A program made the translations under genes and the position numbers. From positions 1 through 41,800 of IMG/VR virus record IMGVR_UViG_3300003437_000036: 41,800 nucleotides of DNA; one strand, given 5' to 3'. The stretch comes from a virus. Shown here one piece after another: positions 20,097-23,812 of the stretch; the first letter of the stretch is position 1, and the number at the start of each line of letters is the position of its first letter. Below the pieces are notes generated by a model. The model made no database searches, had not been told where the DNA came from, and saw nothing but the letters and a program-made list of their open reading frames with translations.

Positions 20097-20389
20097 TACT
20101 CTTCCTCGTCAGTTTGCGGGGTGACAAGAATTCGCTCCATTGGCGCACCCACTCGACGACCAATGTGCTCCACGATAAGATCTCTGGCGCCGACCGCATG
20201 AGCCATGCCCAGAGCATCCATTCCTGGTTTATAGAGAGACTTCCCATCCAGGAAACTCATCTCAAGATCTTCCAAGACTACGCGCCCATCGGAGGACGAA
20301 AAGACGCGCTTGTAACAAGACTTGATCTGCGCCACTGTCAACTGATTGCGTTTGATGATCTTGGGTTTTGCTGCCGGTCTTTTAGCCAT
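20096..20389 (-). CDS. Bbp19-like phage protein (97 aa)
   Basis: After a basic N-terminus (MAKRPAAKPKIIKRNQ), residues about 22-80 show the Bbp19-family pattern: Y-K-R-V-F-x-x-x-D-G-R-x-V-L-x-D-L, then S-L-Y-x-x-G, then A-x-x-x-G-A-R-D-L-I-x-x-I. The family is found next to portal genes in podophages; its molecular role is not known to me. The ATG overlaps the portal stop (TAATG) and the stop overlaps the start of the next small gene. Confidence 0.75.
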   Translation of the reverse strand: MAKRPAAKPKIIKRNQLTVAQIKSCYKRVFSSSDGRVVLEDLEMSFLDGKSLYKPGMDALGMAHAVGARDLIVEHIGRRVGAPMERILVTPQTDEEE

Positions 20390-22056
20390 TAAGCTGCCGC
20401 CTGTGTCCTTGCAGCCGCGCCGGCTGTCGCGATGTCAGCCGCGATGCCAGCGCCGGCCTGGGCCTCGGTAATGCCATCTTCCTTCTTCCTTTGCTCGGCT
20501 CTCCGATCACGAATTTCAATGACTTTATCGACAGTTCTAAGGAATTGCTCCGGCTGCTCGGAGTGGTGATGGAGCCACCTCTGGACTTCATCCATATCGA
20601 CCGTGTCGAGACTTTCCGGGTCGATCTGAGCCGCCGCTGCAACTCCTTCAAGCCAACGTAGCGTACCCGAAATCTCCTGCTGCTTCTGCGCGCGAGATAA
20701 CGGACCGACATACGATATCGAAAGATTTCCAGTTTCGAGGGCCTGCACCAACTGAGCCGGCATCTCGGGAAGTTTGCCCGCACGGTAGAGGATATTAAAG
20801 CCTCGTCCAATGACGGGGTTTTGAAGCTCATATTCCAACCTTCCCAGAATGGGCCCAAGGATCCGCTGCATTAGATCGAACCGGACCTGGACTTCCGTCG
20901 CCGTCATCGTGGCATTGGTGGGAAGCTCCAACTGATCCGCAAAGAATGCGTGACGGATGGCTTCCCGGTATTCGTCCAGCTTGATCCGATTAACATCGAA
21001 CCTCGCCTTACTTTCAAAAGCCTTGAGCGAGCGTTCGATATCACGAACGACATTAGCCTTGCCCGGACGCATGTCGATCTTGCCACCGGCAACACCGTCC
21101 TCCTCCACCAACAGGGGAGGATCAATGGCTTTTGCCCAAGCGTTCAGCTCGAGGCGGGTAGCCTCATTTAAGACTTTGATGTCAGGGAGAGCATTATCGC
21201 CAGGGCCTCTGCCCCATGTCTCACCCGCGACCTGCGACCAGCGCGGCACCGCACACGGGAACTCGTGATAGCCGCTCTTGGCCGCTGTGATCTTGTTCTC
21301 CGGATCGATGTGAACCGAGACGTATTTCATCCCCTCTGGGGCGCTCACGCCCTCAAAGTCGCCATCGGGAGCAATGACCTGGATATAGGGATGCCGCTTC
21401 GCTGGGGCCTTAATCGCATCGGTGCGAATTTTCGGTGCTACATTTTCAGCACCATATTTTTGTATCGCTTGCCGTGCGGTATAATGCCTCGTCAGGAAGA
21501 CCGTATCGACCAGGCCATTCGCGCTCTCTTCGATCACATAGTCCTGGATGCTGAAGGTCGTGAAGACCAAATTTTGCATGGCGGGACCAACGCCATCAGG
21601 CTCCTGTAGAATACAGGAAGTGCCAAGGCCGCTGACATCCAAGTAGCATTCGTGAACCTGGGTGTGGAAGTTGCCCACATTGAAGGCTTTCCACAGGATC
21701 TCGGCACTCTCATCAAAGAACTGTCGGACTTCCTTGATCTTATCAAGCTTTGCATCGCCAGTCGTGAACCCAAACCAACGGACAGCCGAGCTCGACATGG
21801 TGCCGTGCAAGGCTGCCGTTAAGACGGCGTGAGCATGTTGGCCGGCTGAAGAATACCGTTTTTGATTGCGCTTCCCACCTTTAGTCCGCTCACCCTGAAT
21901 TGCATTTTTGCGTGGGATCAGGTTGTCGGCAATCTCCTGCCATCCCTGCTTCCACACGCCACGATCACTGTCCAGCGCATCCCCCCGTTTTTTAATATCT
22001 GTTGCCAGAGTATCAGACCTGGGAGACGTCGCTGAGATAGTAGGTTTCTTAGCCAT
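20389..22056 (-). CDS. Portal (head-to-tail connector) protein, 555 aa
   Basis: The sequence fits the T7 gp8-type connector family. It has an N-terminal R-G-x-x-W-x-x-x-W-x-x-I-A-x-x-x-x-P motif, the SSAVRWFGFTTGD block (about 96-108), the segment HECYLDVSGLGTSCILQEPD, a TATEVQVRFDLMQRILGPIL helix, and an Ala/Gln-rich C-terminal tail that probably points into the head barrel. Twelve copies would form the ring at the capsid vertex that docks terminase during packaging and the adaptor afterwards. The start overlaps the preceding stop as TAATG. Confidence 0.92.
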   Translation of the reverse strand: MAKKPTISATSPRSDTLATDIKKRGDALDSDRGVWKQGWQEIADNLIPRKNAIQGERTKGGKRNQKRYSSAGQHAHAVLTAALHGTMSSSAVRWFGFTTGDAKLDKIKEVRQFFDESAEILWKAFNVGNFHTQVHECYLDVSGLGTSCILQEPDGVGPAMQNLVFTTFSIQDYVIEESANGLVDTVFLTRHYTARQAIQKYGAENVAPKIRTDAIKAPAKRHPYIQVIAPDGDFEGVSAPEGMKYVSVHIDPENKITAAKSGYHEFPCAVPRWSQVAGETWGRGPGDNALPDIKVLNEATRLELNAWAKAIDPPLLVEEDGVAGGKIDMRPGKANVVRDIERSLKAFESKARFDVNRIKLDEYREAIRHAFFADQLELPTNATMTATEVQVRFDLMQRILGPILGRLEYELQNPVIGRGFNILYRAGKLPEMPAQLVQALETGNLSISYVGPLSRAQKQQEISGTLRWLEGVAAAAQIDPESLDTVDMDEVQRWLHHHSEQPEQFLRTVDKVIEIRDRRAEQRKKEDGITEAQAGAGIAADIATAGAAARTQAAA

Positions 22057-23321
22057 TAGGCAGCTCCAATTCGTTTAGATGTTGGGAAGAGCCTGGAAAT
22101 GAACAGGGACGCATTCCCAATTGCATTATCCGTGACATGGATAGTGCTCTCATGGCCCTTTTTAGGATCTGCCTGAAGGATCTCTTGTAATGCCGCAGCG
22201 CCCTTTTGTCGGGCTTCTTGTTCACGGACTATTTGACTTTGTTTCAGCGCTTGTGGGGTAGTTGGGGCTATCACGCTGAGCGATGTCGAGAGCGGCGCTG
22301 TGAAGAGCGGTTGGATCACAGGCAGCGTCGGCGGAACGAGCGTGGTCCGAGCCGCACGCGCTCTTGCGTTGGGCCTGGTAGAGGCCGGTACGTCCGGCGC
22401 CTTGGCTAAGGGTGGTTCGCCGCTGGGGCCAAGGAGTTCAGTATTGAGCTCGTTCTCTCCAGGGCCACCAATATCGTTGATGTCCGGATTGTCTGCGGTT
22501 GGATCTGTCTGGCCTGTATTCGTCCCGTGTGCTCCGAGCCCAACGGCGTCCGAGAAGGCGGCGAGCCCCCGAGAAATCAAACCTATCGTGCTGTTCTGGG
22601 CAGCGGTGTTCATCCCTCTGGCGATGGCCCTATTGACGCTCTCCTGGCTGGAGAAGTCGATACTGTCGTCGATATCGGGGTTTGCATTTTCAGCAACAGC
22701 CGCCGCCTCTGCCGCTGCGATGTCTGCATCTTCTTGAGAGTTTACTCCCGCGTCTGCCGCTGCTTGTGCAGCTTCAGCGTTCGCTTGGGAGGTTGCGACA
22801 TCCGTGTCATCATCCGAGCCGACACTCTCCCCGCCTTCGGCATTTCCGCCTTTGTTGTGGACGACAACACCTTCGGCAATAAAGGTGTGATCCCCGCTGA
22901 CGGTCAGATTGTAGACCAGGAAATCGGGCGCGAGATCGGTCATTACGTGATGCGTGAGCAGAGAGTACGTCCCGTCGCCCAGAAGGACTTTGTCGCCTTC
23001 CTTCAGATCGTAGACTGCCCCACCGTTGGCCTTTGAGATCTCATCGTATTCATCCGGCCAGTTTTTCTTGAATTTTTCCGGATCGAAGCAGGCCCAGCCG
23101 TGATCCGTCTTGATCGGATGCTGGCAAGTCACGAACGGCGCATTGTCGTTGAAGCCGTGGATCCTATTGTCCGCCAACCGGAAGGTCGGCGTTTGCAGGA
23201 TCCTATTGATGCTGGTTTCGCCCTGAACGAGATCTCCAATCGCCAGAGCGGCGATATGTTCGGTATTTCCGTTGGCCAAGGTCACCTTGCACCAAGGAGT
23301 AAAGCATTCACCACCGCCCAT
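22056..23321 (-). CDS. Hint (intein-like) domain protein in the head cassette (421 aa)
   Basis: Residues 6-156 form a complete Hint domain. Block A is Cys6 in ECFTPWCKVTLANGNTEHIA. The block B motif T-C-Q-H is at 65-68. The terminal blocks are LVYNLTVSGDHTFIAEGVVV, then His155-Asn156. The next residue is Lys157, not Cys, Ser or Thr, so this matches a bacterial-intein-like self-cleaving domain rather than a splicing intein. No homing endonuclease insert is seen. The N-terminal piece would be only five residues (MGGGE). Residues 157-421 are Gly/Asp/Ala-rich, then Pro-rich, probably largely disordered, ending in a helical segment. It lies between the GNAT gene and the portal gene, joined to each by stop/start overlaps, so the C-terminal part is probably a virion or assembly protein. 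Cleavage is predicted, not shown. Confidence 0.85.
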   Translation of the reverse strand: MGGGECFTPWCKVTLANGNTEHIAALAIGDLVQGETSINRILQTPTFRLADNRIHGFNDNAPFVTCQHPIKTDHGWACFDPEKFKKNWPDEYDEISKANGGAVYDLKEGDKVLLGDGTYSLLTHHVMTDLAPDFLVYNLTVSGDHTFIAEGVVVHNKGGNAEGGESVGSDDDTDVATSQANAEAAQAAADAGVNSQEDADIAAAEAAAVAENANPDIDDSIDFSSQESVNRAIARGMNTAAQNSTIGLISRGLAAFSDAVGLGAHGTNTGQTDPTADNPDINDIGGPGENELNTELLGPSGEPPLAKAPDVPASTRPNARARAARTTLVPPTLPVIQPLFTAPLSTSLSVIAPTTPQALKQSQIVREQEARQKGAAALQEILQADPKKGHESTIHVTDNAIGNASLFISRLFPTSKRIGAA

Positions 23322-23812
23322 CAGAGTTTCCCCTTATATGTGATTGAATGAGGCTCGAGATCGAGGTTCTCATAGATCTTGCGGGATGCTTCAGTCTCGA
23401 CGCCTGTCGAACTTTCCAATTTTACATGAGTGGCGCCGCTCCTGCGGCCCCAATCTAAAAATGCTCTGTTCATCGTCTGAGCGATCCCTTGGTTTCGCAG
23501 GTCCGGGGCGACCAACGAAAAAATGTCCTTTATAAATAGATCATCTGACCACCAATGTACAAATCGTTCTCCAACAAAGAAGCAAACCGGCATTGTGCCA
23601 AGTCTGCCGGCCAATATGAAAACATCTGGGTTATTGAACCAACTCTTCACCCTTTTCAGGGCCTTTTCGAGGTTGATGTTGGTGCCGCTGTAGTTCCCAC
23701 CGATATGCACCTCGAGTGCCATCTGAACGATATGAGGGTTCGCTTCGATCTGCTCCCATTCGGGAACATAGAACTCCAAATGTGCAGGCTGGCCCTCAGA
23801 TGGCGTGTTCAT
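23321..23812 (-). CDS. GNAT-family N-acetyltransferase (163 aa)
   Basis: The acetyl-CoA-binding motif A is clear: VAPDLRNQGIAQTMNRAFLD (R-x-x-G-x-A type), followed by GATHVKLESS and the final SRKIYENLDLEPHSITYKGK, typical of the GNAT beta-alpha-beta end. The N-terminal half contains the substrate side (EVHIGGNYSGTN; WFNNPDVFILAGRLGTMPVC). The target is unknown; acetylation of a host or phage protein N-terminus or lysine is possible. The gene starts inside the end of the large terminase gene and stops on the start of the Hint gene, so it is co-translated with packaging and head genes. GNAT genes are known at this place in several podophages. Confidence 0.85.
   Translation of the reverse strand: MNTPSEGQPAHLEFYVPEWEQIEANPHIVQMALEVHIGGNYSGTNINLEKALKRVKSWFNNPDVFILAGRLGTMPVCFFVGERFVHWWSDDLFIKDIFSLVAPDLRNQGIAQTMNRAFLDWGRRSGATHVKLESSTGVETEASRKIYENLDLEPHSITYKGKL

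Follow-up and report, generated by a model that had tools for sequence, protein, structure and literature searches.

The gene between the acetyltransferase and portal genes

The viral DNA analysed here (IMG/VR record IMGVR_UViG_3300003437_000036, positions 1 to 41,800; the window) carries on its minus strand a gene for a 421-residue protein. The original prediction, made from the letters alone, had placed this gene between those of a GNAT acetyltransferase and a portal protein, and the flanking PF00583 and PF12236 genes bear the placement out (Table 1). The translation begins with MGGGECFTPWCKVTLANG, contains FVTCQHPIKTDHGW internally and reaches the end of an N-terminal Hint domain at DHTFIAEGVVVHN, after which it continues with KGGNAEGGESVGSDDD. 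The plus-strand frame across the same interval is broken by stops. Start and stop codons overlap where the three genes meet (TGATG and TAATG), and the start of the Hint gene is preceded by AAGGGG, a plausible Shine-Dalgarno sequence.

Table 1. Positions of the Hint gene, its parts and its neighbours in the window, and of acyltransferase genes in other contigs (numbered within each contig).
Feature	Position	Strand	Evidence
GNAT acetyltransferase gene, directly upstream of the Hint gene	23321..23812	minus	Pfam PF00583
421-aa gene: N-terminal Hint cap and 265-aa tail, directly upstream of the portal gene	22056..23321	minus	ORF, BPP-1 bbp22 synteny, overlapping junctions
N-flank MGGGE, 5 residues, would-be N-extein	23307..23321	minus	sequence
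BIL-like Hint domain, residues 6-156 (151 aa)	22854..23306	minus	leave-one-out HMM, AF2, Foldseek/profile matches to BIL2/BIL4
Cys6, predicted N-S acyl-shift nucleophile	23304..23306	minus	invariant in 55 aligned Hints
Block B, T65-C-Q-H68	23118..23129	minus	H68 invariant, T65 at least 90%, 55 Hints
Block G, H155-N156, predicted Asn-cyclisation site	22854..22859	minus	H155 invariant, N156 at least 90%, 55 Hints; TIGR01443 above cutoff
Lys157, +1 residue	22851..22853	minus	K/R in 55/58 unbiased viral Hints of the family
265-aa Ala/Gly/Pro-rich tail, 26.9 kDa, pI 4.4, no Cys/Trp, largely disordered	22059..22853	minus	sequence, AF2 low confidence
Conserved C-terminal core of the tail, residues 317-421	22059..22373	minus	64% identity to Hint-less L040
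Portal / head-tail connector gene, directly downstream of the Hint gene	20389..22056	minus	PF12236, E 5e-117
Acyltransferase gene, L040	1748-2200		
Acyltransferase gene, L130	4628-5086		
Acyltransferase gene, L180	2451-2984		
Acyltransferase gene, L015	1944-2447	minus	
Acyltransferase gene, L175	1995-2480		
Acyltransferase gene, L176	2106-2492		

The gene order of the window (TerS, TerL, GNAT, Hint gene, portal, Bbp19-like gene, capsid gene) is close to that of the Bordetella phage BPP-1, which reads TerS-TerL-GNAT(bbp24)-bbp23-bbp22-portal(bbp21)-bbp20-bbp19-protease-major capsid. In the Pelagibacter phages Baldr and HTVC010P the portal-adjacent slot is filled by a protein of 70-80 aa with the start MGG (phrog_831). 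Judged by gene order, the tail of the Hint gene occupies the bbp22/phrog_831 position, a claim of position and not of family: statistical support for homology of the tail to phrog_831 or bbp22 was not obtained (HMM E 35, hhalign E 0.33). Bbp22 and phrog_831 proteins are encoded in this slot, between the portal gene and GNAT (with bbp23), but contain no Hint domain. A short KKG-STI...LG pattern looks alike in the tail and in phrog_831/Bbp22 when compared by eye. In relatives, the gene upstream of the Hint-gene slot encodes either a GNAT or an HlyC protein.

Orthologs of the protein without a Hint domain occur in three contigs of the same phage group (L040, L130 and L180; terminases 82-91% identical), and an HMM search found no Hint anywhere in these contigs. 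The L040 ortholog has 308 aa, in a contig whose terminase and portal are 91% and 85% identical to those of the window; the L180 ortholog has 304 aa (terminase 82%), and the L130 ortholog accompanies a terminase of 89% identity. All three keep the C-terminal core of the tail, with 64% identity over 107 aa between the window and L040 (E 2e-39). In a four-sequence alignment the N-termini of the orthologs are unrelated yet Gly-rich (MSGSEGPGS, MTKDPFRRCWRWCYGGGDGG, MCGDGDGAGEG), and the N-terminal part is thus hypervariable despite the close identity of the terminases. Hint-less orthologs with a kept core and variable N-termini point to gain or loss of the cap in this lineage, at an N-terminus that was already variable. 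The comparison argues firmly for two separable parts, a protein and a Hint that caps its N-terminus and can be removed. The BPP-1 synteny, together with these three orthologs, also upholds the earlier view that the domain opens a head-cassette protein. The tail may have a role in the virion. Close phages that carry the same protein with and without its cap amount to a natural experiment.

Among the genomes examined, only one has the cap at the portal-adjacent gene. A scan with the tail core recovered only L040. A tblastn search of named phages with the whole protein gave no match, and scanning the viral contigs with the single 421-aa protein gave no relative. The relatives described below were reached through the pattern VVHNKGG and the family alignment.

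The DNA on the two sides of the Hint is alike, with GGCGGTGGTGAATGC running through the Cys6 codon (23304-23321) and GGCGGAAATGCC after the Lys157 codon (22840-22853). This likeness is possibly a trace of insertion and possibly due to chance.

Fold and classification of the Hint domain

The Hint domain of the 421-aa gene is real beyond chance. An HMM built from other phage Hints, with the window sequence excluded, scores it at 110 bits (E 4e-30 at 1e6 sequences), against a top score of 6.7 bits among 2,000 shuffles. The single sequence also matches NCBIfam intein_Cterm TIGR01443 at 29.4 bits (cutoff 15.6, E 6.6e-7) and Pfam Vint at 25.8 bits (E 1.1e-5), the latter slightly below its 27-bit cutoff; the Hint and Intein matches are weaker. 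Cys6, T65-C66-Q67-H68, H155-N156 and Lys157, as well as a domain start five residues into the protein and 265 residues after Asn156, had all been named from the sequence alone, and each is found in the translation exactly where it had been placed. The 55 aligned Hints from which the conservation of Cys6, block B and block G was read include sequences down to 25-37% identity to the window Hint.

An AlphaFold2 model of residues 1-164, computed from the 55 aligned sequences, has a mean pLDDT of 91 and a pTM of 0.86 and shows a mostly beta HINT fold with a small helical insert. Compared with the PDB by Foldseek, all of its top matches are HINT domains. The best is Tetrahymena BUBL1 BIL2 (E 1e-10, TM up to 0.80), further matches being the gp41-1 intein, C. 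thermocellum BIL4 and the Ssp DnaB intein, with Vint and Hedgehog lower. Moreover, the family profile searched against PDB sequences places BIL2 (4e-20) and BIL4 (1.7e-19) ahead of every intein. In the full-length model the Hint is rigid and most of the tail behind it has low confidence; the tail shows a few helices, one of which (356-383) falls in the conserved core.

A similarity to AXH, the Pfam module of ataxin-1/HBP1 (PF08517), was noted for phage Hints, those of L009 and L015 among them. The L009 Hint reaches E 1.9e-8, above cutoff, and the profile of Hint alignment A6 matches ataxin-1 chains at E 4e-4. The AXH and HINT folds may thus be related.

From its sequence and model, the domain is classed as an A-type BIL by fold, Cys/TxxH, His-Asn, +1 residue and location, with the reaction predicted. 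It combines a HINT fold, Cys6 with TxxH, H155-N156 and a +1 residue other than Cys, Ser or Thr, and its host protein is non-conserved and variable in the region where the domain is found. The description as a bacterial-intein-like layout, already given in the original prediction, therefore holds for a BIL-like Hint that has no +1 Cys/Ser/Thr nucleophile. C. thermocellum BIL4 (PDB 2LWY) shares the HINT fold without endonuclease, Cys1, TxxH, His-Asn and the lack of a +1 Cys/Ser/Thr. However, described BILs reside in hypervariable bacterial proteins, whereas the window domain is located five residues into a phage head-cassette protein and is followed by Lys. BIL2 (6Y75/6TMM), the best structural and profile match, has in common with it the HINT fold, Cys1 and the terminal His-Asn. 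It differs in lying between ubiquitin-like domains, one of which it dispenses onto lysines. No ubiquitin-like domain flanks the window Hint, its N-flank being only MGGGE and its tail containing none, although the +1 Lys would be compatible with the isopeptide chemistry of BUBL proteins. An uncultured Caudovirales 'Hint domain containing protein' (BFVD, A0A6J5KSY2) belongs to the same subfamily (TM 0.90, 31% identity); the annotation of such proteins consists of the domain name alone.

Three other assignments were rejected. A PT-HINT pretoxin domain shares the C-terminal His-Asn and an order in which the Hint precedes a C-terminal part that is released, and Lys also stands at +1 in one bacterial example, L169, but PF07591 scores 14 bits against a cutoff of 27.7 and the tail has phage head-cassette orthologs rather than a toxin. 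A canonical class 1 intein is contradicted by Lys at +1 and by the insertion site, which lies after only five residues, within a hypervariable stretch, and not at a conserved site of a conserved protein. A Hedgehog Hog domain, which lacks a splicing-type C-terminal HN and is followed by a sterol-recognition region, is contradicted by the HN pair of the window Hint and by its tail (157-421), in which no known domain was seen.

The wider Hint family and its +1 residue

A family scan of viral contigs returned 135 relatives, from which 107 distinct Hint domains were extracted. They sit in large phage proteins with flanks that are often Gly-rich; positions -4 to -2 are often Gly. When all sites matching the search motif VVHNKGG are left out of the count, the +1 residue of the viral Hints is Lys in 48 of 58 and Arg in 7 of 58. 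Lys also occupies this position in 36 of the 44 bacterial Hints of the family. In contrast, five ordinary phage inteins taken as a contrast set from BLAST matches have Cys or Ser at +1, and the fragment L120 has Thr. The window Hint is a BIL-type member of this +1-Lys/Arg subfamily that caps a head-cassette protein of a phage. In a tree of the family the window Hint groups with the viral L084, L086 and L089 on a long branch, its exact placement being unsure.

Consecutive Hint-like domains are joined by very short linkers, namely KG (10 junctions), K (6), R (1) and KS (1). At least seven Hints lie within one 1838-aa protein (L033), and tandem arrays were also seen in other large phage proteins (L012, L013, L018, L075, L087 and L103). 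Bacterial relatives (Lentisphaerota, Verrucomicrobiota, Elusimicrobiota and others) have similar arrays behind signal-peptide-like starts. Such a start and at least two Hints were observed in the uncultured-bacterial proteins L141, L142, L145, L147, L150, L151, L153, L158, L162, L166 and L170, where the Hints are joined by KG/KGGG and the protein has a Gly/Ser-rich end. The near-invariant Lys/Arg at +1 and the K/KG-linked arrays are unexplained by standard intein chemistry, and the literature searched yielded no functional account of the phage Hint family.

Many phage proteins of the family (L016, L018, L020, L022, L088, L096) end in a conserved segment behind the Hint, KIVCTMMNESYGFGSFRNKIWLKHSK...YQKGYHKIFLPLVKYSK, which is a candidate partner domain.

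A second N-terminal cap is present in L015, a contig that also bears the label L100. Here too only five residues come before the Hint (MGKLS-C...HN-KGGGGPVG). The protein that it caps is a tail hub (PF13550), encoded after a GNAT gene. Hint-less homologs of this tail hub are found in phage DSL-LC06 (MSKVLGKIFKAV), after a GNAT gene, and, behind the gene of an HlyC-type acyltransferase, in Pelagibacter phage HTVC112P (MGGIVEAIVNVV). The window cap and the L015 cap are placed apart in the Hint tree, which makes two origins of N-terminal capping probable.

Predicted reaction of the cap and its neighbours

Hint domains react by an N-S acyl shift at Cys, by Asn cyclisation and by a trans-esterification that needs Cys, Ser or Thr at +1. 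With Lys at this position no ordinary trans-esterification is expected. BIL domains without a +1 nucleophile give predominantly cleaved products according to reviews (PMC7664689, PMC7765530), which favours cleavage. We therefore consider release of the 26.9-kDa tail starting KGGN, through cyclisation of Asn156, the leading reading, with a probability of roughly 0.6. A portal-adjacent protein in the bbp22 slot would have gained an N-terminal BIL-type Hint cap; the Hint would fold, Asn156 would cyclise and the N156-K157 bond would be cut. The products would be the tail, now starting KGGNAEGG, and a Hint fragment of 17.2 kDa, from which an optional N-S acyl shift at Cys6 might shed or transfer the MGGGE pentapeptide. 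Within the head/portal cassette, the freed tail would then perform the role of the Hint-less versions. Probably the effect of the cap is to postpone or alter the exposure of the N-terminus; this region is hypervariable in relatives and follows an acyltransferase gene. If the cap does cleave, the head/portal cassette contains a self-processing step.

The Hint could instead be excised by splicing through an alpha-amine. In this route cyclisation of Asn156 would come first, and the amine freed at the N-terminus of Lys157 would then attack the Cys6 thioester, joining MGGGE to KGGNAEGG and restoring a Gly-rich N-terminus. BIL domains without a +1 nucleophile can reportedly splice too, as is said of work by Dassa in 2004 and Aranko in 2013, and the nearest solved relatives of the window Hint are splicing-competent BILs. 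The Hint has a short, Gly-rich flank on either side (MGGGE and KGGN), and the Hint-less orthologs also start Gly-rich, but none of the relatives begins with exactly MGGGEKGG. Religating an N-extein of five residues would be nearly pointless functionally, and tandem members with a single-Lys linker are hard to explain as extein repair. We regard splicing as unlikely.

The prevalence of Lys at +1, set against the Cys or Ser of ordinary phage inteins, and the frequent Gly at -4 to -2 are compatible with a different use of the thioester, in which the side chain of Lys157, or a lysine of a partner protein, would attack Cys6 and receive MGGGE as an isopeptide. Tetrahymena BIL2, the closest match by structure and profile, is reported by the authors of its structure to form such a bond to a lysine (K eNH2) without ATP (PMC8616854). 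The acyl transfer from Cys6 that the original prediction had offered as its alternative gains some weight from this report. However, the lysine that acts as nucleophile in BIL2 belongs to the ubl5 domain downstream and is not shown to be the +1 residue, and the window protein has no ubiquitin-like domain. Moreover Arg, a poor nucleophile, stands at +1 in about 12% of the viral Hints, which points equally to a role of charge. We regard ligation by the window Hint as quite improbable. Should it occur through lysine, viruses would possess an ATP-free protein conjugation system. In a more general form, phages would ligate proteins without ATP by means of a BIL family specific for lysine at +1, each Hint passing its N-flank as an isopeptide to the following lysine or to one of a partner, giving branched or cross-linked virion proteins; Hint-K-Hint arrays would be ligation relays and the portal-slot protein one substrate. 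This proposal is highly speculative.

Many phage Hints lie inside large, probably structural proteins, as they might if the domain were a folded, chemically silent module, for example an N-terminal adaptor that is never cleaved. Some losses of Cys1, TxxH and HN would be expected in a silent module, but these residues are near-invariant over 55 diverse sequences, which leaves this reading little credence. Intein homing was rejected, the domain having 151 aa and no endonuclease.

A general partnership of GNAT and Hint was likewise rejected. In a scan of 142 Hint loci with a crude profile seeded with the window and L015 GNATs, a GNAT lies beside a Hint only in these two, and Hint-less relatives also carry GNAT. 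Among the close relatives, with terminases 82-91% identical, the window GNAT has 38% identity to that of L180 and 27% to that of L040, and in L130 an HlyC gene is found instead. An acyltransferase, either GNAT or HlyC (PF02794, RTX toxin acyltransferase family), is encoded directly before N-terminally variable proteins in both the portal and the tail-hub slots. This enzyme may act on the N-terminus of the protein encoded next to it.
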